Shown piece after piece: positions 7,224 through 25,774 of a stretch of DNA of 64,000 bases. The notes under the pieces are model-generated. The model did not search any database and was not told the origin of the DNA. It saw nothing but the letters and a program-made list of their open reading frames with translations. The first letter of the stretch is position 1, and every line of letters starts with the position of its first letter. The position numbers and the translations under genes were made by a program. This DNA is from Gallionella sp. (lineage in GTDB: Bacteria; Pseudomonadota; Gammaproteobacteria; Burkholderiales; Gallionellaceae), in NCBI GenBank assembly GCA_022340615.1, contig JAJDNO010000007.1, forward strand, positions 1 to 64,000, read 5' to 3'.

Positions 7224-7859
7224 ATGCTTGCTGCATTATTCGACATCGTCATGCACCTCGATGCGCACCTGCTGGCGCTTACCCAGCAGTACGGCATCTG
7301 GGTATATGCAATCCTGTTCCTGATCATCTACAGCGAGACCGGCCTGGTGGTCGCGCCATTCCTGCCCGGCGATTCGCTGCTGTTCGTGGCCGGCGCGCTG
7401 TGCGGCATGGGCGCACTGCAACTGGAGTGGCTGGTGCCGCTGCTGGTGCTTGCGGCGTTTTGCGGCGACAACACCAACTACTGGATCGGCCGGCTGGTCG
7501 GGATCAGCCTGCTCAAACACGCCGGCGAGAAGCTGATCAGGCGCGAGTACATCGACAAGACTCACTCCTTTTACGAGCGGCATGGCGGCAAGACCGTGAT
7601 TCTTGCGCGCTTCCTGCCGATCATTCGCACCTTCGCGCCGTTCGTGGCGGGCATCGGCATCATGCACTACCGCAAGTTCGTGCTGTTCAGCGCGCTGGGC
7701 AGCGTGGCGTGGATATCCAGCCTGAGCGTGGCCGGCTATCTGTTCGGCAACATCCCGGTGGTGAAGGACAACCTGACCCTGATCATTCTCGGCATCGTGG
7801 TGATTTCATTGATCCCTGCCGCGGCAGAATTCATCCGGCGCCTCGCCAGGCAGGCCTGA
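7224..7859 (+). CDS. DedA family inner-membrane protein
   Basis: DedA/VTT-domain proteins are polytopic membrane proteins linked to lipid carrier recycling and membrane homeostasis; several members flip undecaprenyl phosphate or phospholipids. The 211-residue protein shows GLVVAPFLPGDSLLF, GDNTNYWIGR and ARFLPIIRTFAPFVAG, the signature acidic and arginine motifs of the family. It lies 51 bp after secF, separated by a weak CCCTGAT/ATCAGGG dyad. The exact substrate cannot be read from the sequence. Confidence 0.9.
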   Translation: MLAALFDIVMHLDAHLLALTQQYGIWVYAILFLIIYSETGLVVAPFLPGDSLLFVAGALCGMGALQLEWLVPLLVLAAFCGDNTNYWIGRLVGISLLKHAGEKLIRREYIDKTHSFYERHGGKTVILARFLPIIRTFAPFVAGIGIMHYRKFVLFSALGSVAWISSLSVAGYLFGNIPVVKDNLTLIILGIVVISLIPAAAEFIRRLARQA

Positions 7860-7971
7860 GACGGCTACGGCACCCGGTTGCGGCACTCCTGGCCCGATGA
7901 CCGTTGCGTTTTTCCATTTGCATCCGCGCCGGTAATCCCGCGCAATAGAGCAAACAGAGAGTGGAGTAGCG

Positions 7972-9219
7972 ATGACAAAGCGGTGGATAGTCTTGCTATT
8001 GGCCAGCATCAGCGCCGTTGCGGAGCCGGTCACGGCTGCCGCAGACACGATACCCGATTACAGCACAACCCTGACCGGCAACTGGGGCGGCACGCGCAGC
8101 GCGATGCACAATGCGGGTTACGACTGGGAAATCGTCTACAAACTCGATTTGCTCGGCCAGGTCTCCCGGCCTGCGGATAAAGCCTACGGCCTGGACAACC
8201 TCGATATCAAACTTGCGTTGGACGGCGAAAAGATCGCCGGCATGGCCGGAAGCAGCGCGCTGCTGTATGTGCTGAGCAATCGCGGCGGCAAGCCGTCTGC
8301 GCTGGCTGGTCATAGCGCCGGTGTGGACAACATCGAAACGCCCGAGGACGCGAATACCACCAAGCTGTACCAGGCCTGGGTGCAGCAAAACTTCCTTCAG
8401 GACCGGCTGTCGGTGCTGGCCGGACTGTATGACCTGAATTCGGAATTTTACGTGACCGAATCGGCGTCTATATTCATCCAGCCGGTTTACGGTATCGGTG
8501 CTGAACTGGCCGGCACCGGCCAGAACGGCCCGTCGATTTTTCCGACCACCTCGTTCGGGATGCGCGTGAAGGCGCAGGCGGGCGGATACTATCTGCAGGC
8601 TGCGGTTCTGGACGGAGTGCCGGGCGATCCGAACAACCCCCATGGCACGCACATACAATTCAACAAGGGGGATGGCGCGCTGGATGTGCTCGAAGGATCG
8701 GTCCCGCTTGGCGCGTCGGAAGATGCGCCCGACAACAGGCTGTCGCTGGGTGTCTGGCAATATACCGCCCGCTTCGACGACCTGGTCGATGTCGATGCCG
8801 GCGGAAATCCGGTCAAGCGGCTCAGCCATGGCGGCTATGCGATGCTGGAGAAAGTGCTGCGCGAACCGGGCAGCGATCAGGCAGGCATCAGCGGCTTTGT
8901 CCGGGCCGGAAAAAACGATGGCGACACCACCCAGTTCGATATGACATGGAATGCCGGACTGGTGTTTTCGGGGCTGCTGCCCGGCCGCGACCAGGATCAG
9001 TTCGGCATCGCCTATGCACAGGAACGCAACGGCGAGAAATGGCGTATTTTTTCCGGCAACCCGGTTGTTTTCGAAAGATCGCTGGAGATGACCTGGCGTT
9101 ACGTCGCGACGCCGGCGGTGGTATTGCAGCCGGATGCGCAGTACCTGATCAGCCACGGCAGCGACCCGGCCCTGGACAGGAACTGGTGGCTGGGCATTCG
9201 TGTGGAGATATCGCTATAA
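7972..9219 (+). CDS. OprB-type carbohydrate-selective porin
   Basis: Outer-membrane beta-barrel expected to pass sugars or small solutes. The 415-residue protein starts with a signal peptide (about 1-24, cleavage near VTAAADT). The mature part has LTGNWGGTRSAM, the OprB family start, then WVQQNFLQDRLSVLAGLYDLNSEF and ends with WWLGIRVEISL, a typical barrel C-terminus with alternating aromatic residues. GGAGTAGCG precedes the ATG. It converges on pstB with only 16 bp between the stop codons. The true solute is unknown. Confidence 0.88.
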   Translation: MTKRWIVLLLASISAVAEPVTAAADTIPDYSTTLTGNWGGTRSAMHNAGYDWEIVYKLDLLGQVSRPADKAYGLDNLDIKLALDGEKIAGMAGSSALLYVLSNRGGKPSALAGHSAGVDNIETPEDANTTKLYQAWVQQNFLQDRLSVLAGLYDLNSEFYVTESASIFIQPVYGIGAELAGTGQNGPSIFPTTSFGMRVKAQAGGYYLQAAVLDGVPGDPNNPHGTHIQFNKGDGALDVLEGSVPLGASEDAPDNRLSLGVWQYTARFDDLVDVDAGGNPVKRLSHGGYAMLEKVLREPGSDQAGISGFVRAGKNDGDTTQFDMTWNAGLVFSGLLPGRDQDQFGIAYAQERNGEKWRIFSGNPVVFERSLEMTWRYVATPAVVLQPDAQYLISHGSDPALDRNWWLGIRVEISL

Positions 9220-9235
9220 GGACAGGTGGCGATGT

Positions 9236-10015
9236 TTAACCGAAACGACCGGTAATGTAGTCCTCGGTTTCCTTGCGCTTCGGATTGGTGAACACGTTGC
9301 TGGTTTCGCCGAGCTCGATCAGGTCGCCCATGTACATGTACGCCGTATAGTCGGAGATGCGCGCGGCCTGCTGCATGTTGTGGGTCACGATCACGATGGT
9401 GAAGTCTTCCTTCAGTTCGTCGACCAGTTTCTCGATATGCGCCGTGGAGATCGGATCGAGCGCGGAAGTCGGCTCGTCGAGCAGCAGTATCTCGGGCTTG
9501 ACCGCAATCGCGCGCGCGATGCACAGGCGCTGCTGCTGGCCGCCGGACAGTCCGGTTCCGCTTTGTTTGAGCTTGTCCTTGACTTCGGTCCACAGCGCGG
9601 CCTTGCGCAGCGCCCACTCCACACGGACTTCCATGTCGTGCCTGCTGAGGTTTTCATACAGCTTCACGCCGAACGCGATGTTGTCGTAGATTGACATCGG
9701 GAAAGGGGTGGGTTTCTGGAAAACCATGCCGATTTTTGCGCGCAGCATGTTCAAATCCTGCTTGCTGTCCAGGATATTCGCACCGTCCAGCATGATTTCG
9801 CCGGTGGCTTTCTGCTTCGGGTAGAGCTGATACATTCGGTTGAAAGTGCGCAGCAGAGTGGACTTGCCGCAGCCGGACGGTCCAATGAAGGCGGTCACCA
9901 TTTTTTCCGCAATGCTCAGGTTGATGTCCTTCAGCGCGCGGAATTTCCCGTAATAGAAATTCAGGTCCTTGATGACGATTTTCGGATTCACGACGACTTC
10001 TATGTCCATATTCAT
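9236..10015 (-). CDS. pstB: Phosphate ABC transporter ATP-binding protein
   Basis: Energises high-affinity phosphate import. The 259-residue protein has Walker [10 protein letters not shown] at 46-53, the Q-loop [17 protein letters not shown], the signature [14 protein letters not shown] and Walker [13 protein letters not shown], then the H-loop THNMQQA. It is the last gene of pstS-pstC-pstA-pstB. The phoU gene that often follows pstB is absent; the porin gene converges directly. Confidence 0.97.
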
Positions 10016-10048
10016 TTCACGCCTTGTTGATGTTCGGATTATGGCCGG

Positions 10049-10903
10049 TTAATGGGTTGTGGCGCTCTGCCGGAACAGCACCCGAGCCACGATATTGAGT
10101 GTCAGCACGCTGGCGGTGATCAGCAGCGCGCCTGCCCAGGCCAGATTTTGCCAGTCATCGTAGGGGCTCATCGCGAACTGGAATATCACCACCGGCAAAT
10201 TGGCCATGGGCTGGTTCAGGTCCTTGCTCCAGAACTGGTTGTTCAGCGCGGTGAACAACAGCGGTGCGGTTTCGCCGCTGATGCGCGCGACCGCGAGCAA
10301 TACCCCGGTAATGATGCCGGCGCGCGCGGCGCGCAGCGTGATGAAATTGATCACCTTCCATTGCGGTGCGCCAAGTGCCGCAGCGGCTTCGCGCAGGGTG
10401 CTGGGAACCAGCTTCAGCATGTTTTCGGTGGTGCGGATCACGACCGGGATCACCAGTATCGCCAGTGCGAATGCGCCCGCCCATCCTGAGAAGTGTTTGA
10501 CCCTGATTACATAGACTTCATAGACGAACAGCCCGATCACGATGGATGGTGCCGACAGCAGCACGTCGTTGATGAAGCGGGTGACCGGGGCCATCCAGCC
10601 GCGTTGGCCGAATTCGGCCAGATAGGTGCCGGCGAGTATGCCGATCGGTGTGCCGATCAGGATGCCGAACACCGTCATCAACACGCTGCCCGCGATTGCG
10701 TTGAGCAGCCCGCCCGCATTGCCCGGAGGCGGGGTCATTTGAGTAAACACAGCAGGGGTGAGCGAGGGCAGCCCATGAACCAGCAGGGTCAGCAGTATCC
10801 AGCATAACCAGAACAGGCCGAACAGCATCGCCAGTACCGAGATCGAGAGTCCCACCGCATTGGTGATGCGGCGACGCGTATACAGGCTGGGCAGGATTCT
10901 CAT
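10049..10903 (-). CDS. pstA: Phosphate ABC transporter permease PstA
   Basis: Inner-membrane half of the phosphate channel, pairing with PstC. The 284-residue protein has about six transmembrane helices and the binding-protein-dependent permease motif around [30 protein letters not shown] (EAA loop that docks with PstB). Its ATG overlaps the stop of pstC by 4 bp (ATGA), indicating coupled translation. Confidence 0.96.
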
Positions 10904-11862
10904 GAGGCCTGCCCTTCGCGTTTGCCGAGTCGGTACAGCATGAAGCGGGCAATCGACAGCACCACGAAGGTAATGAAGAACAGGATCAGGCCGAGCTCGA
11001 TCAGCGACGAGGTGTAGAGAGCGCCGACGGCCTCGTTGAATTCGTTGGCGAGCGCCGATGAAATGCTGTTGCCGGGCATCAGCAGTGACTTGTTCAGGTC
11101 GTGCGAATTGCCGATCACGAAAGTGACGGCCATGGTTTCACCGAGCGCGCGCCCGAGTCCGAGCATGATGCCGCCGGCCACACCGACTTTGGTGTAGGGC
11201 AGAACCACCTGCCACATCACTTCCCAGGTGGTCGCGCCAACCGCATAGGCCGACTCCTTGAGCATCGACGGCACCACGTCGAAAACGTCGCGCATCACCG
11301 AAGCGATGAACGGGATCACCATGATCGCGAGAATGATGCCGGCGGTCAGCAGACCGATACCCATCGGCGGGCCGGAAAAAAACGGCCCGATCAGGGGCAG
11401 GGAACCGACATGCCGGTTCAGCCATGGCTCGACGTGGTCGGCGAACATCGGTGCGAATATGAACAGCCCCCACATGCCGTAAATGATGCTGGGGATGCCG
11501 GCCAGCAGCTCGATCGCGATGCCGAGCGGGCGGCGCAGAAAGCGCGGAGAGAGTTCGGTCAGGAACAGCGCGATACCGAAACTGACCGGAATCGCAATGA
11601 ACAGCGCGATGCCGGAAGTAACCAGCGTGCCGAATACCGGGATCAGTGCGCCAAAGTTGTCGTTGACCGGGTCCCATTTGGTACTGGTCAGAAAACCGAA
11701 GCCAAAAGCATGGATGGCGGGCATGCTGCCTTCCACCAGCGAAACGATGATCGCAGCCAGCAGTGCCAGCACGGCGAATGCGCAGAAACGCGTCAGGCTC
11801 CTGAATGACAGATCGAATAATGCCTGTCGTTTGAGGCTCGCTTCGTGTGAGAAGATCATCAT
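10900..11862 (-). CDS. pstC: Phosphate ABC transporter permease PstC
   Basis: The other membrane half of the phosphate channel. The 320-residue protein has an N-terminal helix at about 27-47 ([20 protein letters not shown]), six or so further helices and the EAA loop [26 protein letters not shown]. It lies downstream of pstS, separated by 103 bp that hold a GC-rich hairpin, which probably lowers its expression relative to the binding protein. Confidence 0.96.
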
Positions 11863-11904
11863 GGTCGACTGTTCTGGTTAAATGATGCCGCGGCAAAAAC
11901 ACAA

Positions 11905-11922
11905 CGGGGGCATAAGCCCCCG
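11905..11922 (-). terminator. GC-rich hairpin between pstS and pstC
   Basis: CGGGGGC and GCCCCCG form a 7-bp stem with a 4-nt loop. On the minus strand it is followed by GTTGTGTTTTT. It probably acts as a partial terminator or an mRNA 3' end stabiliser, keeping PstS more abundant than PstCAB. Confidence 0.6.
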
Positions 11923-11965
11923 CGATTATAACTTATGGGTGTGCTGTGTCAGCCACGTCCCGGAT

Positions 11966-13015
11966 TTATTTCCAGACGGGCTTTCCTGCTGCAGTCTTGA
12001 TCTGTGCGGCCCATTCTTTATGGATCATTTTAATCAGGCTCTTCGGCAATGGGACGTAATCCAGATCCGAAGCCATTTTGCTTCCATGCTCGTAGGCCCA
12101 TGCAAAGAACTTGAGTACTTCCCTGGCCGTTGCGGGCTTGTCCTGAATCTTGTACATCAGGATGAACGTTGCACCGGCGATCGGCCAGCTTTTTGCGCCG
12201 GGTTGATCGGTCAGCAGCAGGTAGAACCCGGGTGCCTTGTTCCACTCCGCGCCGGCTGCAGCGGCCTGGAATGCGGACGCCTCTGGCTCAACGAAATGAC
12301 CGTCGCGATTCTTCAGCGAAACATGGTTCATGTGGTTCTGCAGCGCATAGGCATACTCGACATAGCCGATGGAACCCTTGATGCGCTGCACATAGGAAGC
12401 AACGCCTTCATTGCCCTTGCCGCCGGTGCCGGCTTTCCATGCCACCGAAGTACCCACGCCGACGCTGGATTTCCATTCCGGGCTGACCTTGGACAGGTAG
12501 TTGGTGAAAATGAAGCTGGTGCCGGAACCATCGGAGCGGTGCACAACTGTGATGTCCTGGTCGGGCAGTTTGATATCCTTGTTTAATGCTGCGATTGCCG
12601 GGTCATTCCACTTGGTGATCTTGCCCAGGTAGATGTCTGCCAGTGTCGCACCGTCCAGTTTCAGCGAGCCGGACGCGATGCCTTCGAGATTGACGACCGG
12701 AACCACACCGCCGATCACGGTCGGGAATTGCATCAGCCCCTTTTCTTTCAGAACCTCCGGCTTGAGAGGCATGTCGGATGCGCCGAAGTCTACGGTCTTG
12801 GCGCCGATCTGCTTGATGCCGCCACCGGAACCGATGGACTGGTAATTCAGGCCTATACCGGTATTGGACTTGTACGCAGCAGCCCATTTGGAATATACCG
12901 GGTAAGGGAAAGTGGCGCCTGCGCCGGTGATGTCGGTAGCCTGGCTTGCTCCTGCGTAAACCACTGCCGCGGTCGCTGCAATACCGATCAAGAATTGTTT
13001 CAGTTTGCTGTTCAT
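11966..13015 (-). CDS. pstS: Phosphate ABC transporter periplasmic binding protein PstS
   Basis: Captures phosphate in the periplasm for PstCAB. The 349-residue protein has a signal peptide (about 1-26, ending ASQA), then TGAGATFPYPVYSKW, the first phosphate-contacting loop. SIGSGGGIKQI, DFGASDMPL and HRSDGSGTSFIF carry the remaining ligand residues. A ribosome site GGAG lies upstream of the ATG. It is the first gene of the operon and sits behind a Pho box. Confidence 0.97.
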   Translation of the reverse strand: MNSKLKQFLIGIAATAAVVYAGASQATDITGAGATFPYPVYSKWAAAYKSNTGIGLNYQSIGSGGGIKQIGAKTVDFGASDMPLKPEVLKEKGLMQFPTVIGGVVPVVNLEGIASGSLKLDGATLADIYLGKITKWNDPAIAALNKDIKLPDQDITVVHRSDGSGTSFIFTNYLSKVSPEWKSSVGVGTSVAWKAGTGGKGNEGVASYVQRIKGSIGYVEYAYALQNHMNHVSLKNRDGHFVEPEASAFQAAAAGAEWNKAPGFYLLLTDQPGAKSWPIAGATFILMYKIQDKPATAREVLKFFAWAYEHGSKMASDLDYVPLPKSLIKMIHKEWAAQIKTAAGKPVWK

Positions 13016-13024
13016 TTGTATCTC

Positions 13025-13056
13025 CAGTTGGGTAACTGCCGGGTTGAGTAACTGCC
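13025..13056 (-). repeat. 16-bp tandem duplication in the pstS leader
   Basis: Two adjacent 16-bp units (13025-13040 and 13041-13056) match at 13 positions and share GTAACTGCC. They lie in the untranslated leader, immediately upstream of the ribosome site. No function is evident. Confidence 0.6.
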
Positions 13057-13105
13057 GCGATTCTTGAACACGTATTATTGCTGCGACGCTTTTATTGCAG
13101 CTCCG

Positions 13106-13139
13106 ATGTTAGGGATGAAATATTACAGGAATATTACAG
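13106..13139 (-). promoter_or_regulatory. Pho box and -10 of the pst promoter
   Basis: On the minus strand CTGTAAT-ATTC-CTGTAAT covers 13139-13122, two 7-bp half-sites in 11-bp register as in the PhoB consensus. TAACAT (13111-13106) follows after 10 bp, the usual -10 position at PhoB-activated promoters. Predicted start near 13099 gives a leader of about 85 nt. Confidence 0.88.
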
Positions 13140-13351
13140 TTTGCTTGCAGCTTCGTATCAGCCGGATTTGGCTATGACGCAGGGCGGGTTTCAGGGCGGC
13201 GCGTGCGAGTCATCGCCTGCTTCGCGTGGTCTCCGACTTGATCCTGTCGAAGCGCGACAGGGGCAGGTTGGTTATTTTGCGAGTATCCGGGCCGTGACAG
13301 CTATCCGTTTCGTTTTATCACCTATACGTTCGAGCTCGATGTCGTACTGCT
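13140..13351. other. Intergenic region between pst promoter and the metallophosphoesterase gene
   Basis: Together with the pst leader and promoter this makes a 336-bp gene-free stretch (13016-13351). Apart from a CCTGTCG/CGACAGG dyad near 13241 without a T-run, I see nothing here. A plus-strand frame through this region has no ribosome site and no recognisable protein. Confidence 0.5.
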
Positions 13352-14128
13352 TCAGGCAGCTCGCAGTTCCCGGTCATTTTCAGTTTGAGAGTTTGAGGTG
13401 CCCTGCCACTCGATCAATTCCAGCCGGCCACCCAGGTGTTCGACTATTGCGGTGCAGCTATCCACCCAGTCACCGCAATTGACATAAAGCAGATCGCCGA
13501 CATCCTTGATGGCGGCACTGTGAATGTGGCCGCAGATCACGCCATTCAGCCCGCGATCCCTTACCGAATGGATAACCGAGTCTTCGAAATCGAATACGAA
13601 TGAGACTGCGGACTTGACCTTGCGCTTGGCGTATCCGGCAAGTGACCAGTAGCCGCCGATGTGCAGGGTACGGCGCCACCAGGACAACCATCCGTTGATG
13701 CGCACCAGCAGGTCGTAGCCGACGTCGCCCAGAACGGCCACCCAGCGATGGTGCCGGATTACCTGGTCGAACTGGTCGCCGTGGGTCAGCAACAGACGCT
13801 TGCCGTCCGCGGTTTCGTGAAGCCATTCGTACGAGATCAGGATGTCCCCGAATGATGTGCCGCAATATTCCCGCAGCACTTCGTCGTGGTTGCCGGGAAT
13901 GAAGACCACCTTTTCGCCGTGCCGAGCACGGCGCAGGATTTTCTGCACGACCGTGTTCTGTTTTTGCGACCACTGTATGCTGCGCCCCATGGACCAGAAA
14001 TCGATGATGTCGCCGAGCAGAAACAGGTGATCGCTTTCATACTCTCGCAGGAAATCCAGCAATCGGTCCGCCTGGCAACCGCGCGTGCCCAGATGGATGT
14101 CCGAGAGGAAAATTGAACGTACTTTCAC
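13352..14128 (-). CDS. PlcP/LpxH-like metallophosphoesterase
   Basis: Calcineurin-type phosphoesterase of 258 residues. Metal-binding motifs are all present: SDIHLG (D10, H12), GDIIDFW (D40), GNHDE (79-83), THGDQFD and GHIHS near residue 197. It begins FLSDIHLGTRGCQADRLLDFL, which I recall from the group annotated UDP-2,3-diacylglucosamine diphosphatase-like. That group includes PlcP, the phospholipase C that strips headgroups from phospholipids under phosphate starvation in other proteobacteria. Its position between pstSCAB and a glycosyltransferase plus dgkA favours PlcP over LpxH, but this is inference. No Pho box is evident directly upstream. Confidence 0.8.
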   Translation of the reverse strand: MKVRSIFLSDIHLGTRGCQADRLLDFLREYESDHLFLLGDIIDFWSMGRSIQWSQKQNTVVQKILRRARHGEKVVFIPGNHDEVLREYCGTSFGDILISYEWLHETADGKRLLLTHGDQFDQVIRHHRWVAVLGDVGYDLLVRINGWLSWWRRTLHIGGYWSLAGYAKRKVKSAVSFVFDFEDSVIHSVRDRGLNGVICGHIHSAAIKDVGDLLYVNCGDWVDSCTAIVEHLGGRLELIEWQGTSNSQTENDRELRAA

Positions 14129-14268
14129 GCCGCCAGATTAGTCCGGCAGCGTGACGCTTTCGTTAATTATTTATTGCATTACTGTTGCAATCGGATCAAT
14201 CGCGATGTCGGCCTGGTTGATGGATTCTCGTCGCATCGGATTCGAGACCGCTGCGAGGAATATTTCAA

Positions 14269-14297
14269 TTGCATGGGCTATACAAAAAAGCTAATCT
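14269..14297 (+). promoter_or_regulatory. Candidate promoter of the lysine-rich protein gene
   Basis: TTGCAT, 17 bp, TAATCT in an AT-rich stretch about 100 bp before the ATG at 14396. The match is moderate. Confidence 0.35.
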
Positions 14298-14395
14298 CTA
14301 TATATAACGAAATCATTATCCGGCATGAATATCGTCAGACATGTTCGGTTAGACTGATCGAAACCAGCAAAGCAATTACAGGGACGGAAAGTGCA

Positions 14396-14770
14396 ATGAC
14401 GAAAGCCAGCAAGCCAGACTATTTAGCCAAGGTCAAAGAATTATCCAGGATCGAAATCGAGCGATTGCTGTCCAGAATGGGCGGAAAACTGGACCGCCGG
14501 ATGGAGAAGGGCAAGTTGAGCCAGGAAGAAGCCCTGGCCAAACAGCTGGAACTGGAAGACGAGCAGCTTCAGGCGTGGCGCAAGGTTATGTACAGCCTGA
14601 AGAAGAAAGAAGAAGCCAAGCTGGCAAAAGAAGCCAGAAAAAAAGAAAAGGCCAAGACGCCTGCAAAGAAAGCCAAGACAACCGAGAAAGAAAAGCCGGC
14701 GGCAAAGGCCAAAACTGCAACCAAGACCAAGGCACCCGCCAAACGCAAGGCTGCGGCGAAGAAGGCCTAG
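14396..14770 (+). CDS. Small lysine/alanine-rich protein of unknown function
   Basis: Not recognised as a named family. The 124-residue product has an acidic-basic helical N-terminal half (about 1-75, likely coiled or helical, with LEDEQLQAWRKVMYSLKKKEE) and a strongly basic tail (about 76-124) made of Lys-Ala-Pro-Thr repeats such as KTATKTKAPAKRKAAAKK. Such tails resemble histone H1 or other nucleic-acid or polyphosphate-binding tails. The ATG follows GGACGG; the longer frame from 14174 has no support. It lies between two envelope genes on the other strand. Confidence 0.75.
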   Translation: MTKASKPDYLAKVKELSRIEIERLLSRMGGKLDRRMEKGKLSQEEALAKQLELEDEQLQAWRKVMYSLKKKEEAKLAKEARKKEKAKTPAKKAKTTEKEKPAAKAKTATKTKAPAKRKAAAKKA

Positions 14771-14914
14771 GCCAGGCCGGTTTCCACTCATTCTTCTTTT
14801 GTTGTGTGCCCGATCCGGACGCACAGCAAACCTTTGAGCATCAAATGCCAGGATTCAGCGCGAGGATGTCCAGCCATCATTGAAATCTGTGCAGCGTTCC
14901 GCTAGCAGCAAGCG

Positions 14915-16117
14915 TCATCCCGGATTCGTGTCCGTTGCCGGCTGCAGGTTAGCTGTGCCTGGATGCGGCTCCTGTCTGGATGCCAGGTTTGCCAGCGCTT
15001 CCTCGAATTCATCCACGATGTTTTGCCAGTCGAGCTTCAGCATGGTCTGGTGTGCATATCCGCGCATTCTCTCGATACCAGCATGATCATTTGCCAGTCG
15101 GCATGCAACTTTTACGAACTGATCCGCATTGCCGTACTCGGCGTGCAATCCGTTCTCGCCATCCACGATATGTTCGGCGGCTGCGGCATAGCGGTAGGCA
15201 ACCACGGCAAGCCCGCTGGCCATCGCTTCCACGGTCACGTTTCCGTAGGTTTCAGTCATGCTCGGGAACAGGAAGATATCGCCTGAGGCGTAATGCGCAG
15301 CCAGATCCTCGCCGGTCCGCATGCCGGCGAAAATATATTCCGGATTCTGCCGCTGCAATTCCGCGCGTACCGGGCCGTCCCCGACCATGACCAGCTTCAG
15401 TTTGGGATTGACTGCCTGCATCGCCTTGAAGGTGCGCAGCACCAGCGGCAGGTTCTTTTCGGCCGAGATGCGGCCCACATAAATGACCGCCAAGTCGTCA
15501 TCCGCAAGCAGCCCCCATTGCGCGCGCAATTTCCTGCTGCGCTTGCCGGGATGGAACAGTGCGGTTTCCACGCCGCGCGCGACGACCTGCAGTTTCTGGT
15601 ACCCCTCCTTTTTGAGCGTGTCGCGCAATTCGTTGGTCGGGACCAGCGTGGCGTCGGTGCGGTTGTGCAGATTGCGCAGATAGCCAGCAACGGTCTTTTG
15701 CAGCCAGCCGAAGCCGTAATGTTTGCTGTAACTGTGGAAATTGGTATGAAAGTCGCTGCTGACCGGGATGCCGAGTTTGCGAGCGGCGGACAGGGCTGAA
15801 GAACCGAGCGGTCCTTCGGTGACCAGATGGACCACGTCGGGGCGCTGGCTGGTCCAGAGTCTGATCAGCCGCTGTCTGGCCGGAAGCCCCAGTTTCAGGC
15901 CCTGATAGCGTGGAATCGGGAAGCCGCGCACCAGAACTTCCTGCAGATTGGCCTCCTGTTTTGCGCTGTCCTGCGGGTTCTGGCGCGGACGCACCAGTTC
16001 GACCACATGCTTCTGGCGCAAGCCCTCCACCATGCGGCTGATGGTCATCGCCACGCCGTTTATTTCAGGCGGATAGGTTTCGGTCACGACCGCGATACGC
16101 AGCTTACGTTCTGACAT
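14915..16117 (-). CDS. GT4 family glycosyltransferase, candidate glycolipid synthase
   Basis: Retaining sugar-nucleotide glycosyltransferase of 400 residues with GT-B fold. The N-terminal domain starts RIAVVTETYPPEINGVAMTI, typical of the SqdX/MgtA/PimB-like branch that glycosylates diacylglycerol or related lipids. The C-terminal domain has YVGRISAEKNLPL and the E-x7-E motif in FPSMTETYGNVTVEAMASG. ATG 16117 follows GAGGGG; the longer start at 16141 lacks a site. Three Pho-type 11-bp repeats lie upstream. With the phosphoesterase and DgkA it could make phosphorus-free glycolipid (inference). A role in capsule or LPS sugars is the alternative. Confidence 0.82.
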   Translation of the reverse strand: MSERKLRIAVVTETYPPEINGVAMTISRMVEGLRQKHVVELVRPRQNPQDSAKQEANLQEVLVRGFPIPRYQGLKLGLPARQRLIRLWTSQRPDVVHLVTEGPLGSSALSAARKLGIPVSSDFHTNFHSYSKHYGFGWLQKTVAGYLRNLHNRTDATLVPTNELRDTLKKEGYQKLQVVARGVETALFHPGKRSRKLRAQWGLLADDDLAVIYVGRISAEKNLPLVLRTFKAMQAVNPKLKLVMVGDGPVRAELQRQNPEYIFAGMRTGEDLAAHYASGDIFLFPSMTETYGNVTVEAMASGLAVVAYRYAAAAEHIVDGENGLHAEYGNADQFVKVACRLANDHAGIERMRGYAHQTMLKLDWQNIVDEFEEALANLASRQEPHPGTANLQPATDTNPG

Positions 16118-16175
16118 GGTTTCCCCTCTGGTATTGGACATTCATCGCGAGCACTCTCGCACTTGAACAAGAAGT

Positions 16176-16208
16176 TTTGATGAAGGATTTGTGATGGATT
16201 TGTGACGA
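16176..16208 (-). promoter_or_regulatory. Three 11-bp Pho-type direct repeats before the glycosyltransferase
   Basis: Plus-strand units 16176-16186, 16187-16197 and 16198-16208 repeat in an 11-bp register. On the minus strand each carries a TCA core followed by A/T-rich bases (TCACAAAT, TCACAAAT, TCATCAAA), as in tandem PhoB half-sites. The block fills the space between dgkA and the glycosyltransferase. A matching -10 is not obvious. Confidence 0.5.
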
Positions 16209-16210
16209 TA

Positions 16211-16579
16211 TCAATCCAGCAGGACCAGCAGCCATATCAGCAACACGTTCAGCAAACTCAGCAATACGGCTGCGCTGCCGATGTCCTTGGCGCGCTTCGC
16301 GAGCTTGTGCTGGTCCAGCGAGGTGTGGTCGACGGCAGCTTCCACCGCCGAATTGAGCAGTTCGACGATCAGTACCAGCAACACGCTGGCGATCATCAGC
16401 GCCTTGCCGACGCTGTGAACCGGCAGCAGTATCGCTGCAGGAATCAGGATGCATGCCAGCAGCACTTCCTGGCGGAATGCATCCTCGTGGCGAAACGCGG
16501 CGCGCAATCCGGCCAGCGAGTAGAACAGAGCGTTCCAGAGGCGCTTCAGGCCGGTCTTTCCTTTATATGGGCTTTCCAT
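16211..16579 (-). CDS. dgkA: Diacylglycerol kinase
   Basis: Phosphorylates diacylglycerol to phosphatidic acid in the inner membrane. The 122-residue protein is a little over the family's usual 120. It has an amphipathic N-terminus (GLKRLWNALFYSLAGLRAAFRHEDAFRQE), three transmembrane helices and the catalytic stretch VELLNSAVEAAVD. It lies 93 bp upstream of the glycosyltransferase on the same strand. In that setting it may return diacylglycerol to phospholipid synthesis. Confidence 0.96.
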   Translation of the reverse strand: MESPYKGKTGLKRLWNALFYSLAGLRAAFRHEDAFRQEVLLACILIPAAILLPVHSVGKALMIASVLLVLIVELLNSAVEAAVDHTSLDQHKLAKRAKDIGSAAVLLSLLNVLLIWLLVLLD

Positions 16580-16703
16580 TGCTATCCTGTAATTGTGATG
16601 AGTGGATACCCGCGTTGCGAGCCATGGGAGAATATGTCATGAGTATTTCAGTTTGGTTACGGCACTGGACGCGGCGAGTCCGTTAAAACAGCGAAAATTC
16701 AGG

Positions 16704-16732
16704 TTGAATATTCCGGTCGACTTCGGTAAAAT
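16704..16732 (+). promoter_or_regulatory. Predicted promoter of rpmB-rpmG
   Basis: TTGAAT (16704-16709), 17-bp spacer, TAAAAT (16727-16732), followed by a short leader to the ATG at 16766. Confidence 0.6.
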
Positions 16733-16765
16733 CCGCGCTCTTTTGAAATTGGTTGGAGTTGAGCT

Positions 16766-17002
16766 ATGGCACGTGTATGTCAAGTCACCGGAAAAGCCCC
16801 GATGAGCGGGAACAACATTTCCCACGCAAATAACAAAACAAAGCGCCGCTTTTTGCCGAATCTGCAGCGTCGCCGTTTCTGGGTTGAATCCGAAAACCGC
16901 TGGATCAGCCTGCGCCTGACCAATGCAGCTTTGCGCACCATCGACAAGAACGGCATCGACGCGGTGCTGTCCGAAATGCGCGCCCGCGGCGATAAAATCT
17001 AA
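16766..17002 (+). CDS. rpmB: 50S ribosomal protein L28
   Basis: Large-subunit protein of 78 residues. [21 protein letters not shown] at the start and [24 protein letters not shown] in the middle are the L28 signature. GGAGTTGAGCT precedes the ATG. rpmG follows after 10 bp, the usual pairing. Confidence 0.98.
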
Positions 17003-17298: not shown

Positions 17299-18144
17299 TC
17301 AAGCAGATATCGCCTGCATACCCTCGCGATAGGCTTCGGCCTGCTCTGCTGCCCGCCTGCGTTCCTGGCGGCTCATCCACAGGCTGCCGGCGACCACTCC
17401 GACCGACACCACTGCCACGGTGATTGTCGCAATCGCATTCACGGTCGGGTCGAGCCCCAGGCGCGCGCGCGACAGGATGACCAATGGCAGGGTCGACGAA
17501 CCCGGTCCGGAGAGAAAGGCGGTGGTGACCACATCGTCCAGAGATATTGTAAAGGTCAGCAGCCAGGCAGCCATCAGCGATTGCGCGATCATCGGCAGCG
17601 TGACCAGGTAAAACACCTGAAAGGGTTTGCAGCCAAGATCCATCGCCGCTTCCTCCAGCGATTTATCCATTTCCAGCAAGCGCGACTGGATGACGACCGC
17701 GGCATAGGACAGGCCGAATGTGGTATGACCGATCCAGATCGTGAAAATGCCGCGTTCGGGCATGCCGATCAAACGTTCGCACATCACGAAAAAGAGCAGC
17801 AGCGACAAGCCGGTGATGACCTCGGGTACAACCAGCGGTGCATTGATGTGGGCAAAGAAAGTGGTGCGCCCGAAGAATGACTTGTAGCGCACCATTGCGA
17901 ACGCAGCGAACATCCCGAGCACGACCGAAGCCGTGGCGGTCATCAGTGCAATCTTCATCGACAGGAAGAATCCGTTCACGACTTCGCTGTCATGGATGAT
18001 CACGCCATACCATTTGAAACTGAAGCCGCCCCACAGGGTTACCATCTTCGATTCGTTGAAAGAGAAGATAATCAGCGTCAGGATCGGCACGTAGAGAAAC
18101 AAGTATCCTGCGGTCAGCCAGATTTTACCGAGTCGGCTATTCAT
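17299..18144 (-). CDS. potI: Putrescine ABC transporter permease PotI
   Basis: Second membrane subunit of the putrescine importer. The 281-residue protein has six predicted helices (first LTAGYLFLYVPILTLIIFSF). The EAA docking loop LEEAAMDLGCKPFQVFYLVTLPMIAQ is followed by the SLDDVVTTAFLSGPGSSTLP segment typical of PotI/PotC. It starts 4 bp after potH ends, in potF-potG-potH-potI order. Confidence 0.94.
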   Translation of the reverse strand: MNSRLGKIWLTAGYLFLYVPILTLIIFSFNESKMVTLWGGFSFKWYGVIIHDSEVVNGFFLSMKIALMTATASVVLGMFAAFAMVRYKSFFGRTTFFAHINAPLVVPEVITGLSLLLFFVMCERLIGMPERGIFTIWIGHTTFGLSYAAVVIQSRLLEMDKSLEEAAMDLGCKPFQVFYLVTLPMIAQSLMAAWLLTFTISLDDVVTTAFLSGPGSSTLPLVILSRARLGLDPTVNAIATITVAVVSVGVVAGSLWMSRQERRRAAEQAEAYREGMQAISA

Positions 18145-18148
18145 GATT

Positions 18149-19084
18149 TCATAATCCCCTTGCGCCGCCGGAATCAGACTGAAATTTGTTGAAGATCGCC
18201 AGAGGGATCAGAATCAGGACGACCATGCTCACTGCTACCGCCGATGCCATTGCCCAGTCGTTGTTGCTGAAGAACTCGTCCCAGAGCACGCGTCCTATCA
18301 TCAGCGTGCTCGGCCCGCCCAGCAGTTCCGGAATCACGTACTCGCCGACGCTCGGGATGAATACCAGCATCGATCCCGCGACGATGCCGTTTTTCGACAA
18401 GGGGACGGTCACCAGCCAGAAGGCTTTCCACGGTGTAGCGCCCAGATCCTTGGCAGCCTCGAGCAAACGCAAATCCATCTTCACCAGCGTCGCATAGACG
18501 GGCAGGATCATGAACGGTATATAGGTGTACACCATGCCTATCGTCATGGAAAATCCGGTGTACATCATCTTGATCGGGTCGTGAATGATATGCAGCCAGA
18601 TCAGCACGTTGTTGATCACGCCATTGTCGTCGAGCAGCCCTTTCCATGCATAGACGCGCAGCAAATAGGAGGTCCAGAACGGCAGTGACACCATCATCAG
18701 CAGGGCGGGCCGCATTGTGGCTGGCGATCTCGCCATGAAATAGGCAAATGGGTAGCCGATGATCAGGCAGATCAGCGTGTTAATTACCGCAAACTTGATC
18801 GAAGACAAGTAGGTCTCGATGTACAGCGGATCCGTCGTCAGGAAGATGTAATTCGACAGCTTGATCTTGAGCTCGAAGATGCCATTGGCATAACTGGTCA
18901 GGTCCTGGAAATGAATGCCCAGCGCATCCGTGCTCGATACGCTGATTTTCAGCACAACCAGGAATGGCACAGAGAAAAACAGGATCAGGAAGCCATATGG
19001 AATGCCAATGACGGAGCGCCGCCCCCAGTTCCGCTTCAGAAACTGCACAATGCCATAATTGCCAATACTGGATGCAATGCTCAT
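18149..19084 (-). CDS. potH: Putrescine ABC transporter permease PotH
   Basis: First membrane subunit of the putrescine importer. The 311-residue protein has six helices, ARSPATMRPALLMMVSLPFWTSYLLRVYAW, and the EAA loop LEAAKDLGATPWKAFWLVTVPLSKNG followed by FIPSVGEYVIPELLGG, all characteristic of PotH/PotB. It lies 18 bp downstream of the ATPase gene. Confidence 0.94.
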   Translation of the reverse strand: MSIASSIGNYGIVQFLKRNWGRRSVIGIPYGFLILFFSVPFLVVLKISVSSTDALGIHFQDLTSYANGIFELKIKLSNYIFLTTDPLYIETYLSSIKFAVINTLICLIIGYPFAYFMARSPATMRPALLMMVSLPFWTSYLLRVYAWKGLLDDNGVINNVLIWLHIIHDPIKMMYTGFSMTIGMVYTYIPFMILPVYATLVKMDLRLLEAAKDLGATPWKAFWLVTVPLSKNGIVAGSMLVFIPSVGEYVIPELLGGPSTLMIGRVLWDEFFSNNDWAMASAVAVSMVVLILIPLAIFNKFQSDSGGARGL

Positions 19085-19102
19085 TGTCTTCGCACCTGTG
19101 GC

Positions 19103-20296
19103 CTAGTTCGCGAGCACGACGACATCGCTGCCGTCCCACCACACGTATATCTGCTGTCCGCGCACGAGCTGTGTTTCTTCATGGCGGGCCGAATTCTCCC
19201 GCGAAGCCTTGATCACCATGCCGCTTTCCAGCCTGACGTGGAACAGAGTGAACTTGCCGAAGTAGGCGATTCCATCAATCGTCCCGCGGGCAACGTTATA
19301 GCCCTGCTCTTTGGGCGATTCGCGCTGTTCAAGGGTGGGCTCGTGGCTCTGCAGGCATATCTTCTCCGGGCGCAGCGCGATGTTCACCTGCATGTCTATC
19401 ATTCCGGTGATGCCGTGCGTTACGAAATGCCGGCATTCGGGTGTTTCGATGAGTACATGGTCCGGTTCATCGACGATCACCTTGCCCTTGAACAGGTTCA
19501 CATCGCCAATGAATCCGGCAACGAATACGCAACTTGGCGTTTCGTATATTTCGCTGGGCGGGCCGACCTGCAGAAAACGGCCTTCCTGCATGACGGCGAT
19601 ACGGTCAGCCATGATCATGGCTTCTTCCTGGTCATGGGTCACCATCGCGCAGGTAACCCCGACGCTCTTGATGATATTGACCAGTTCGAACTGCGTTTCC
19701 TCTCGCAGCTTGCGATCCAGCGCACCGAGGGGTTCGTCAAGCAGCAGCAGTTTCGGGCGCTTGGCCAGACAGCGTGCCAGCGCGACGCGCTGCTGCTGTC
19801 CTCCCGAAAGCTGGTGCGGCTTGCGCTTGGCATAAGGTTTGAGTTTGACAATTCCCAGCGTCGTTTCGACGCGCTCGGCGATCTGATCTTTGGGCATGCC
19901 GTCGCGCTTCAGGCCAAAGGCGACGTTCTCCCATACGGTCAGGTGGGGAAACAGCGCATAGGACTGGAACATCATGTTGATCGGGCGCTCATATGGCGGC
20001 ATCTTTGCGATATCGTCCCCATCGAGGTAAATATTACCTGAGCTGGGCATCTCGAATCCTGCCAGCATCCTCAGGAGTGTTGATTTGCCGCAACCCGAAG
20101 AGCCAAGTAGTGCAAAGATTTCGCCCTTTTTGATATCGAGTGAAACATTGTCGACTGCGGCCACTTCGTCGAAATGCTTGCTCAACCGGTCAATTCTGAC
20201 GAACAGTGAATCATCTTCGCGCGCAGTAGAGTTCGCAACAGAATCTGCCATGTCCTGCGTCCCTTTTCCGTTGTGTAGTTGTGGTGGAGTGGCCAT
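19103..20296 (-). CDS. potG: Putrescine ABC transporter ATP-binding protein PotG/PotA
   Basis: Drives polyamine uptake. The 397-residue protein has an N-terminal ABC domain with LGSSGCGKST (Walker A), [15 protein letters not shown] (signature) and LLLLDEPLGALD (Walker B). A C-terminal TOBE regulatory domain (VNIALRPEKICL onwards) follows. ATG 20296 has AAGGAG 8 nt upstream; an internal ATG at 20251 is the alternative. It is the second gene of the operon, 34 bp after potF. Confidence 0.93.
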   Translation of the reverse strand: MATPPQLHNGKGTQDMADSVANSTAREDDSLFVRIDRLSKHFDEVAAVDNVSLDIKKGEIFALLGSSGCGKSTLLRMLAGFEMPSSGNIYLDGDDIAKMPPYERPINMMFQSYALFPHLTVWENVAFGLKRDGMPKDQIAERVETTLGIVKLKPYAKRKPHQLSGGQQQRVALARCLAKRPKLLLLDEPLGALDRKLREETQFELVNIIKSVGVTCAMVTHDQEEAMIMADRIAVMQEGRFLQVGPPSEIYETPSCVFVAGFIGDVNLFKGKVIVDEPDHVLIETPECRHFVTHGITGMIDMQVNIALRPEKICLQSHEPTLEQRESPKEQGYNVARGTIDGIAYFGKFTLFHVRLESGMVIKASRENSARHEETQLVRGQQIYVWWDGSDVVVLAN

Positions 20297-20330
20297 TGCA
20301 GCCACTCCTTGGTTTTGGCTCAGATATTTA

Positions 20331-21461
20331 TCAGAGGCCGGTCTTGAACTTCGTAAAGAGCCGCGTGCGAAGACGGCGGGTGTCGATGGCCACCATGTCA
20401 GGCGGGACCATACGGGCCAGATCTTCCGGTGGCATGAAAACGGCCTTGTTCGCCCGTATTCCGGGTTTAATGTACTTGGCCGCACTTGGAACCGGGTTGG
20501 CATAGAAGACCTTGTTGACCAGGCCGGCGTTGACTTCTGGACGATAAATGTAACTCATCCACTTGTAAGCGTTTGCTACATGCGGGGCATCGGCCGGGAT
20601 CGCCATCGTGTCAAAGAATAGTACCGCGCCAGTCTTGGGCAACAGCACCTGGATGTTGACGCCGTTCTTTGCCTCTTTTGCCCGCCTTTGAGCGATACTC
20701 ATGTCGCCATTCCAGCCGAGCGAAACACACAGGGACCCGCTGGCCAGGTCGTTGATGTAACCGGATGACGAAAACAGGGTGACGTAAGGACGGATCTTGC
20801 CAAGCAGCTTGGCGGCTTCCTGGTAATCGGCGGGATTGTTGCTATAGGGCGGCTTGCCCAGATAGCGCAGCGCGGCCGGAAAGACTTCGTCGCCCGAATC
20901 AAGCATGGATACTCCGCAGGACTTGAGCTTGCTGATGTATTCCGGTTTGAAGAGCAGGTCCCATGCATTGTCCGGCATCGGCAAATTGCCCAGGGCCGCC
21001 TTGACCTTGTTGACGTTGATGCCGACTGTCGTTATTCCCCATAACCAGGGTACGAGGTACTGGTTGCCTGGATCAATGGCCGCCAGCTTCTTCATTACGT
21101 AAGGGTCGAGATTGTTGTAAGTGGTGATCCTGCTCTTGTCCAGTTTCATCAGGAGACCGCCTTGGAGCTGTATCTTGGCCCAATTCGACGAAGGCACGAC
21201 AATGTCGTAACCTGTGTTTCCAGCTACCAGTTTGGCATGAAGTGTTTCGTTGCTGTCGAAGGTGTCATAGTGAACCTTGATGCCGGTTTCCTTCTCGAAA
21301 TTCTTGATTGTGTCGTCACCGATGTAATCCGACCAGTTGTAGATATTGAGTACATTGTCCTGGCCGGCTACAGATATACCCGGCATGCCAAGAGACAACA
21401 GGACTGTTGCAAGCGCAGCACCAAACCGTACTGCTCGATTCTTCAGGTTGCTACCGAACAT
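20331..21461 (-). CDS. potF: Putrescine-binding periplasmic protein
   Basis: Delivers putrescine to PotGHI. The 376-residue protein has a signal peptide (about 1-32, SLGMPGISVAGQDN) and the family start VLNIYNWSDYIGDDTIKNFEKETGI. The ligand-site segments SLGWNGDMSIAQ and FFDTMAIPADAPH follow. ATG 21461 follows AAGGAA at 8 nt; the longer frame to 21608 has no site. A sigma-54-type promoter lies about 120 bp upstream. The SpuD/SpuE group of Pseudomonas is the closest named type I recall. Confidence 0.94.
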   Translation of the reverse strand: MFGSNLKNRAVRFGAALATVLLSLGMPGISVAGQDNVLNIYNWSDYIGDDTIKNFEKETGIKVHYDTFDSNETLHAKLVAGNTGYDIVVPSSNWAKIQLQGGLLMKLDKSRITTYNNLDPYVMKKLAAIDPGNQYLVPWLWGITTVGINVNKVKAALGNLPMPDNAWDLLFKPEYISKLKSCGVSMLDSGDEVFPAALRYLGKPPYSNNPADYQEAAKLLGKIRPYVTLFSSSGYINDLASGSLCVSLGWNGDMSIAQRRAKEAKNGVNIQVLLPKTGAVLFFDTMAIPADAPHVANAYKWMSYIYRPEVNAGLVNKVFYANPVPSAAKYIKPGIRANKAVFMPPEDLARMVPPDMVAIDTRRLRTRLFTKFKTGL

Positions 21462-21580
21462 AATATTTTCCTTGGTTGCATCGGTTGATAAAGTCCAGCG
21501 CCTCAGGCGATGAACGTGAATGAAATACTGCTTTGCGACCTTTGTTCGCCACTCGCAGTCATACCGGAATTTTATGGGAA

Positions 21581-21596
21581 TGCAAGTTTTGCGCCA
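21581..21596 (-). promoter_or_regulatory. Sigma-54-type promoter of potFGHI
   Basis: On the minus strand TGGCGCAAAACTTGCA has the invariant -24 GG and -12 GC at exact spacing and matches TGGC-N7-TTGCA. Transcription would start near 21570. It implies RpoN plus an enhancer-binding activator, consistent with nitrogen control of polyamine uptake. Confidence 0.6.
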
Positions 21597-21744
21597 TCCC
21601 CAATACATCCAGTCACCATTATTAATTATACTTATCTAATAAATCAAAACGCCAACGAATCAAAAATTTCAGGGGGCGCCATGCTATGCAGATATAATGC
21701 AACATCATAATTTATATGAGCAATTCCTAGATCCGTGGCGATTG

Positions 21745-21759
21745 GGTTGATTCTCAACC
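21745..21759. repeat. Inverted repeat in the pot-puu control region
   Basis: Perfect 6-bp arms GGTTGA and TCAACC around TTC. Possible operator for an unidentified regulator. Confidence 0.4.
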
Positions 21760-21794
21760 GGAATCGGCAAGCAAACGGAGGGCATTTGGGTAAT

Positions 21795-21809
21795 TTTGAT
21801 GGTATCAAA
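21795..21809. repeat. Second inverted repeat in the pot-puu control region
   Basis: Perfect 6-bp arms TTTGAT and ATCAAA around GGT, 50 bp from the first dyad centre to centre. Possible operator; the sequence differs from the first dyad. Confidence 0.4.
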
Positions 21810-22005
21810 TATGCCAATAATCCATATGGGCGGATCCTGCCCCAAAAACAGGCAGAGCTCATCCCCGTGGAATATATTTGGACGGTGGTCAGCAGCACTT
21901 TTCGGAACACATGCGAAACAGTCGCAAACACATATAAACTGCATAGCGGGAAATTTGAACGTTGTCGCAGGCCTGAGTTGTTGCGTTGCGCTTTAATGGT
22001 ACCAA

Positions 22006-22035
22006 TTGACGGCTAATCAGGGTAGCGTTCACTAT
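22006..22035 (+). promoter_or_regulatory. Weak candidate promoter of puuD
   Basis: TTGACG (22006-22011) is a good -35, but the -10 (CACTAT at 22030, 18-bp spacer) is poor, so an activator may be needed. Confidence 0.3.
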
Positions 22036-22060
22036 TCGTGGTTTGATCCAGGATTCTTAA

Positions 22061-22864
22061 ATGACCCAGAATCGCACGCCGGTTGTGCTCATCCCGGCAG
22101 ATTACAGGCAACTCGGCGACCATCCATTCCATGTCGTCGGTCACAAGTATGTCGATGCAGTCGTTCAGGCGGCGGGTGCCTTTCCGCTGGTGATCCCTGC
22201 ACTCGGGACGATGGGTGAAATGGAGGCCGCGCTTGCAGTTGCCGACGGCATTTTGTTATCGGGTGCCGTATCCAACGTCCACCCTTCCCATTTTGACCAG
22301 GCTGTGCGTGATCCGTCCTTGCCACTGGATCCCGGGCGTGACGGCATGACCTTGCCATTGATCCGCGCCGCGGTGAAAGCAGGTATTCCCGTATTCGGAA
22401 TCTGCCGCGGATTGCAGGAAATCAATGTCGCTTACGGCGGCAGTTTGCACCAGGCGGTGCATCAAAATGCAGGGATGTCGGATCACCGCGAAGCAAAAGC
22501 CGGGTCGCTGGAAGAGCGATATGGGCTGGTGCATCCGGTGCGTACCGTCGCCGGGGGCAAGCTGGCCGCAATCACCGGGAGCAGCGAAATCATGGTTAAT
22601 TCCCTGCATGGCCAGGGTATAGATCGTCTGGGTGCCGGACTGGTAGCTGAAGCGTATGCACCCGACGGACTGATTGAAGCCATCAGCATCTCCGGCGCGA
22701 AATCGTTTGCCCTGGCGGTGCAGTGGCATCCCGAATGGAATGTATTGAACGTCCCTGCTTACCTGGCAATTTTTCGCGCATTTGGCGAGGCTTGCCGGTT
22801 AAGAGCGGCACAGCGCAATGATGGGGCAAATAAAAAAGCAAAAATGGAGAACATGGATGTCTGA
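22061..22864 (+). CDS. puuD: Gamma-glutamyl-GABA hydrolase
   Basis: Releases GABA and glutamate from gamma-glutamyl-GABA in the glutamylated putrescine pathway. It is a class I glutamine amidotransferase-like protein of 267 residues with the nucleophile in GICRGLQEIN, LSGAVSNVHPSHF upstream, and the catalytic His-Glu in QWHPEWN. It is first in the plus-strand polyamine operon. Its stop codon overlaps the start of puuA by 8 bp. Confidence 0.94.
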   Translation: MTQNRTPVVLIPADYRQLGDHPFHVVGHKYVDAVVQAAGAFPLVIPALGTMGEMEAALAVADGILLSGAVSNVHPSHFDQAVRDPSLPLDPGRDGMTLPLIRAAVKAGIPVFGICRGLQEINVAYGGSLHQAVHQNAGMSDHREAKAGSLEERYGLVHPVRTVAGGKLAAITGSSEIMVNSLHGQGIDRLGAGLVAEAYAPDGLIEAISISGAKSFALAVQWHPEWNVLNVPAYLAIFRAFGEACRLRAAQRNDGANKKAKMENMDV

Positions 22865-24227: not shown

Positions 24228-24267
24228 TTGCTACTGAATGAACCGGGATATAAACAAGGAAATCACC

Positions 24268-25671: not shown

Positions 25672-25774
25672 ATCGGTCACGGCAGGGCTGGAGTCGTTCG
25701 CAGGTACAAGCTGTTCGAGGAATAAACTTGCAGGTAACCGACAGGCATACCCGCATATTCAGACAGGAGAAGCC

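Follow-up and report, generated by a model that had tools for sequence, protein, structure and literature searches.

The systems closest to the locus described here are of the PlcP-Agt kind. In Pseudomonas aeruginosa, this pathway comprises PlcP (PA3219) and two glycosyltransferases, Agt1 (PA3218) and Agt2 (PA0842). PA3218 was reported to yield monoglucosyldiacylglycerol (MGDG) in Escherichia coli and PA0842 to yield glucuronosyl-diacylglycerol (GADG), not MGDG (PMC8528852). For Sinorhizobium meliloti and marine bacteria, two studies describe six types of PlcP gene context, including glycosyltransferase neighbors and putative Pho boxes, and such surveys map lipid renovation via the presence of plcP (PMC4796936, PMC9239053). 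Here we describe a locus of this kind beside the pstSCAB genes in a 64,000-nucleotide stretch of Gallionella sp. DNA (the window), which is part of contig 19 of a 2.27-Mb genome that is 99.5% complete. It very probably represents a Pho-regulon lipid renovation locus that would make glycolipid when phosphate is short. As judged by homology, it is the known PlcP-Agt pathway in an arrangement linked to dgkA, the gene for diacylglycerol kinase. The enzymes are of known kinds; the dgkA grouping and a widespread sister version with a different phosphatase look new. The features of the locus are as follows.

13352..14128, minus strand: predicted plcP-type phospholipase C gene with a GTG start (258 amino acids; calcineurin-like phosphoesterase), from homology and its GNHD motif
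14915..16141, minus strand: Agt2-type (PA0842-type) GT4 gene (agt2), predicted diacylglycerol glucuronosyl-/glucosyltransferase
16211..16579, minus strand: dgkA, prokaryotic diacylglycerol kinase (PF01219, 117.4 bits)
13111..13161, minus strand: pstS Pho box, consecutive 7-base half-sites spaced 11 bases apart (the three best triples of the window)
14151..14190, minus strand: weak, doubtful Pho-like repeats upstream of plcP
16180..16208, minus strand: Pho-box-like triple repeat between dgkA and agt2, 38 bases 5' of the glycosyltransferase start
16634..16662, minus strand: Pho-box-like triple repeat, 54 bases 5' of dgkA
9236..13015, minus strand: pstSCAB, high-affinity phosphate transporter (NCBIfam matches)
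9236-10015, minus strand: PstB (NCBIfam equivalog cutoff exceeded)
10049-10903, minus strand: PstA (NCBIfam equivalog cutoff exceeded)
10900-11862, minus strand: PstC (TIGR02138 passed, 314 versus a cutoff of 196; PRK11275 not reached, 467 versus 502)
11966-13015, minus strand: PstS (NCBIfam equivalog cutoff exceeded)

Profile matches and the site scan confirmed the positions of pstSCAB with its Pho box, the PlcP-type phosphoesterase, the GT4 enzyme, and dgkA given in an earlier reading of the same DNA (the sequence-only reading). Its proposal that phospholipids are exchanged for glycolipids gained support from homology, regulation-like sites, and conserved linkage. Overall that interpretation is partly supported: the finding was real and was mostly read rightly, with the changes given below.

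The window glycosyltransferase was 51.3% identical to P. aeruginosa Agt2 (PA0842). A tree built from 84 glycosyltransferases placed the two with 58 others in one 60-row branch (Shimodaira-Hasegawa-like approximate likelihood ratio test, 99). The 9 Agt1 rows formed a separate branch, and 14 rows, often PlcP adjacent, made up a third. The enzyme had been described as unlike the best-known ones; it is instead of the characterized Agt2/PA0842 type. In P. aeruginosa PA7, the best match to the window enzyme was 51% identical and the PlcP-adjacent gene 36%. A second P. aeruginosa record has the 51% match directly after plcR, where it is presumably PA0842, in line with the gene order of PAO1. The glycosyltransferase tree was a quick one built without bootstrap, and its deepest joins are unsure because of long branches. 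Rows required a match of more than 840 bases with at most one X, so partial copies are missing from it. The only long Agt match in the genome, near or far from plcP, was the window gene itself, with no other long match to the third branch and one weak 73-residue Agt match on contig 17. As separate observations, the third branch (G115 and 13 other rows) was PlcP adjacent in many genomes, and in P. aeruginosa NZ_CP131792.1 (L131) the Agt2 gene stood directly after plcR, behind a gene annotated as phosphocholine-specific phospholipase C, with a Pho-like site of its own.

The sugar is most likely glucuronate. A Ugd-type (UDP-glucose 6-dehydrogenase-type) protein on contig 66 scored above the TIGR03026 cutoff and would provide the UDP-glucuronate. 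We regard as possible but less likely that the sugar or the acceptor is a different one (glucose on diacylglycerol, or N-acetylhexosamine on phosphatidylglycerol), in which case the product would not be GADG. Sugar choice can differ at 51% identity, and the best curated models for the window enzyme were N-acetylglucosaminyl phosphatidylglycerol synthase (151 bits) and alpha-monoglucosyldiacylglycerol synthase (117 bits). However, both scores are far below the cutoffs (480 and 400), and the models do not discriminate because P. aeruginosa Agt2 itself also falls far short of them (135 and 96 bits). A PDB sequence search returned general GT4 relatives.

To locate Pho-box-like sites, every position on both strands of the window was scored for 7-base half-sites at 11-base spacing. 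The weights were our approximation of CTGTCAT(NNNN)CTGTCAT, the consensus given in PMC8528852. The pstS Pho box was both the best double and the best triple of approximately 128,000 positions. Among 127,944 triples, ranks 1 to 3 fell in the pstS promoter, rank 4 before dgkA, and rank 5 before the glycosyltransferase gene, and these five top nonidentical triples were all in the orientation of their genes. The dgkA site was the window's best outside the pstS promoter, with a P value of 0.007, and ranked fifth as a double. As a quadruple (16180-16219), the glycosyltransferase site was third best, behind two pstS sites (P = 0.023 against its own shuffles). The genome encodes PhoB (347 bits; cutoff, 296).

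Conservation was assessed in 150 genomes drawn from the order. The glycosyltransferase search matched 93 of them at E values of up to 1e-30. After matches of 27 to 38% identity (other branches) were left out and two partly known copies (G095 and G132) were kept, 60 Agt2-type copies remained in 57 genomes. PlcP was matched in 72 genomes at E values of up to 1e-10, and in 70 once two with only 29 to 33% identity (G019 and G025) were dropped. The linkage of the Agt2-type gene to plcP and dgkA was more than chance: PlcP lay within 9 kb of 16 copies, and DgkA lay within 1.5 kb of 24, in 23 cases upstream on the same strand. DgkA adjacency spanned 12 of 26 families, by our count from the context table. 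Where the sequence of a locus stops near the gene, as it does in some, a neighbor farther out would be missed.

Upstream regions of relatives, in sets that included named records (P. aeruginosa, S. meliloti, and Mitsuaria), carried a triple site at P < 0.05 in 51 of 60 Agt2-type, 29 of 39 PlcP, and 9 of 24 DgkA cases. The reverse-strand counterparts were 12 of 60, 7 of 39, and 2 of 24, and these P values are generous because about 10% of control regions upstream of other genes (12 of 115) also passed. A score of at least 14.5 was reached by 42 of the 60 Agt2-type regions, compared with 7 of their 60 reverse-strand counterparts and 4 of the 115 control regions (the last count worked out from a printed fraction).

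These results change the picture of dgkA in two respects. The genes had been taken as separate units. That dgkA and the glycosyltransferase gene are 69 bases apart on one strand, each with Pho-box-like repeats upstream, in a pairing that recurs in relatives, corrects this. The suggestion that DgkA acts when phosphate returns is not favored, because the region upstream of the window dgkA carries a Pho-like site, which argues for induction under starvation, with the limit that only 9 of 24 DgkA upstream regions have such a site at P < 0.05. The same count is consistent with DgkA being a bystander outside the response, recycling diacylglycerol that arises in other ways. So are the site that the Agt2-type gene usually has of its own and the 36 of 60 copies without DgkA within 1.5 kb. 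The recurrent upstream, same-strand position of dgkA, its adjacency across families, and the rank of the window site argue against a bystander, which we consider the less likely reading.

The phosphoesterase is, by homology and tree placement, of the PlcP type. It was 46.8% and 48.1% identical to the PlcP homologues of S. meliloti and P. aeruginosa, respectively, which were taken from public records and are not the tested strains' own proteins. The metal-site motifs of metallophosphoesterases (DxH, GD, GNHD, HGD, and GHIH) were all present, with GNHD conserved in 40 of 40 PlcP rows. LpxH fell outside all 40 rows of the PlcP tree, at the end of a very long branch, and the branching order among PlcP groups was poorly resolved. 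A search of the genome for a second PlcP-like gene returned only the self-match at E values of up to 1e-5. It is improbable that PlcP lies outside the phosphate response, being expressed steadily for lipid turnover while the glycosyltransferase receives diacylglycerol from elsewhere. The weak site before the window plcP and the 27 of 60 Agt2-type copies in genomes without PlcP would agree with this, but a Pho-like site precedes most plcP genes in relatives, and the PAP2 phosphatase type linked to agt2 in relatives (see below) is not in the window genome. Furthermore, the window plcP is directly upstream of pstS, and plcP and Agt2-type genes lie near pst genes again in three relatives (G069, G088, and G129). 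Identity with LpxH of lipid A synthesis can be dismissed: although the superfamily is the same and public records of relatives are named UDP-2,3-diacylglucosamine diphosphatase, the window protein scored 46.9 bits on the LpxH model against a cutoff of 190.35 (PlcP homologues of S. meliloti and P. aeruginosa, 38.9 and 44.5 bits, also below cutoff), and the genome has a separate, genuine LpxH on contig 17 (284 bits) with GNRD in place of GNHD and 25.6% identity to the window protein over 121 residues. The phosphoesterase neither groups with LpxH nor is the genome's sole copy, so this ground for refuting the sequence-only reading falls away.

From the gene identities, branch membership, binding-site-like repeats, and conserved linkage, we infer the following course. 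Upon phosphate shortage, PhoB would switch on pstSCAB and also, by way of the repeats upstream of each of its two genes, the dgkA-agt2 unit. PlcP would cleave phospholipid into diacylglycerol and a phosphorylated headgroup, and the Agt2-type enzyme would then transfer a sugar, most likely glucuronate from UDP-glucuronate, onto diacylglycerol. The product would be an anionic, phosphate-free lipid able to replace phosphatidylglycerol. DgkA probably limits or buffers excess diacylglycerol by converting it to phosphatidate, and the finding would tie a diacylglycerol kinase to the lipid renovation pathway. An OlsBA route to ornithine lipid is unlikely in this organism because no OlsB homologue (PF13444) was found in the genome.

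Several observations weigh against this reading. Within the window, no clear Pho box stands before plcP (rank 79 among triples and 15 of 127,922 among quadruples; P = 0.15), and the glycosyltransferase site is only about 28th as a double, so the double scan does not single it out. The site weights are approximate and the P values generous, as the controls indicate. The 687 bits of the Ugd-type protein are below the cutoff of its closest model (757). Among relatives, PlcP is absent within 9 kb of 44 of the 60 copies of the Agt2-type gene, and 14 copies have neither PAP2 nor PlcP close by. A Pho score of 14 was reached by 10 of 16 PlcP-linked copies, versus 27 of 30 PAP2-linked and 11 of 14 other copies. 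The separation of PAP2 and PlcP loci described next is limited as well: four families hold both locus kinds, the Fisher test ignores kinship, and 8 of 30 PAP2-linked copies share a genome with a PlcP located elsewhere, so that exclusion is only partial at the genome level. With these points counted, a PlcP-Agt locus that responds to phosphate shortage is still, in our judgment, very probable.

Relatives suggest a PlcP-independent version composed of dgkA, agt2, and a PAP2 gene. A PAP2 gene was directly downstream of 30 of the 60 Agt2-type copies on the same strand, three of them overlapping the end of agt2. No copy had PAP2 and PlcP at one locus (0 of 60; Fisher P = 1.9e-6, kinship ignored). 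Of the 26 families, 16 had PAP2 loci and 9 had PlcP-linked loci. Twenty-two of the 60 copies were paired with PAP2 in genomes without a PlcP match, and 21 of these 22 had a Pho score of at least 14; plcP-based surveys would therefore miss such genomes. Two genomes of the same family as the window (G024 and G071) had agt2-PAP2 and no PlcP match. The three PAP2 motifs were all present in 30 of 30 distinct PAP2 matches with 140 or more aligned residues; these matches coincide only in part with the 30 PAP2-linked copies. The nearest curated models were the undecaprenyl-diphosphatase SepP (52 bits) and PgpB (35 bits). Because both scores are far below cutoff, the agt2-linked PAP2 may alternatively serve in undecaprenyl phosphate recycling. 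The window genome has two PAP2 proteins; neither is of the agt2-linked kind, one matching at 29% over 58 residues and the other not at all. We give about even chances to the joint proposal that a Pho-controlled, PlcP-free dgkA-agt2-PAP2 module is widespread in this order, in which PAP2 supplies diacylglycerol from the dephosphorylation of phosphatidate or phosphatidylglycerophosphate, that PlcP replaces PAP2 in the window, and that a corresponding Acinetobacter pair may make lipid U3 (see below).

Other gene contexts were seen around plcP. The same-genus relative G115 (L126) had PlcP with a third-branch glycosyltransferase. One gene family, a class III aminotransferase (tested in L120), was found near plcP and the Agt2-type gene in six relatives (L119, L120, L122, L123, L124, and L113). 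In several of these, the neighborhood also includes a gene of the phosphatidylserine decarboxylase type (as tested in L120) and one for a small protein that matched nothing in Pfam (as tested in L123). The aminotransferase and decarboxylase neighbors perhaps belong to another lipid headgroup pathway. In G069 (L124, 4450-5508), plcP and the Agt2-type gene had an OlsB-like acetyltransferase gene (PF13444) nearby, and a gene of the same cluster was similarly placed in G060 (L119, 11648-12487).

In the window, the interval between plcP and the glycosyltransferase gene holds a plus-strand open reading frame (14393-14770), divergent from plcP, with a lysine- and alanine-rich, histone H1-like makeup and no match in Pfam or NCBIfam. 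The 144-base stretch between it and agt2 (14771-14914) folded no better than shuffles (z, 0.50), giving no sign of an agt2-plcP terminator. A strong terminator-like hairpin occupied the pstS-pstC gap (11904-11923), as expected of an attenuator after pstS. Consensus scans of 9000-17000 yielded three promoter-like and five terminator-like sites, versus 3.6 and 8.0 in shuffles. Adjoining pstB, positions 7224-9219 encode a VTT-domain (DedA-like) membrane protein and an OprB-type porin, and the double-site scan of the window showed no good Pho-like site upstream of the porin gene. Positions 17299-27232 hold transporter genes (solute-binding protein and ABC ATPase) together with genes for a class III aminotransferase, a peptidase C26, and an aldehyde dehydrogenase, a set that looks like one for polyamine uptake and breakdown.

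The locus thus resembles described systems in its enzymes and differs from them in its arrangement. It shares with the P. aeruginosa system of PMC8528852 PlcP (48% identity), Agt2 (51%), and Pho-box-like sites upstream of both pst and the glycosyltransferase gene. Unlike in P. aeruginosa, no Agt1-type gene was found in the window genome, agt2 is paired with dgkA rather than placed after plcR, and plcP adjoins pstSCAB without a clear Pho box. With S. meliloti and the marine bacteria it shares the PlcP homologue (46.8%), but the usual partner there is an Agt gene directly after plcP (PMC4796936, PMC9239053), and the main text of PMC4796936 makes no mention of diacylglycerol kinase. Searches of open-license PMC papers for a PAP2, DgkA, betaproteobacterial, or Acinetobacter version yielded none among the titles and abstract openings listed.

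The agt2-PAP2 pair has a counterpart in Acinetobacter baumannii (CP035931.1; L135, 2857-4731), where, unlike in the window, the Agt2-type gene is followed by a PAP2 phosphatase gene. Its glycosyltransferase is 42% identical to that of the window, with a Pho-box-like site 40 bases upstream (P = 0.001). Of the four A. baumannii records with an Agt2-type glycosyltransferase, three are 3.7 to 4.1 Mb long, and none of the 31 PlcP-matching public records was from Acinetobacter. According to PMC11828411, A. baumannii forms three unknown lipids under phosphate limitation. Two of these, U1 and U2, were ninhydrin positive and turned out to be aminolipids; U3, ornithine lipid, and lysine lipid were not made by a phoR mutant. 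Our guess is that U3 is the product of the Acinetobacter agt2-PAP2 pair, which makes the pair a testable candidate for the origin of this lipid.

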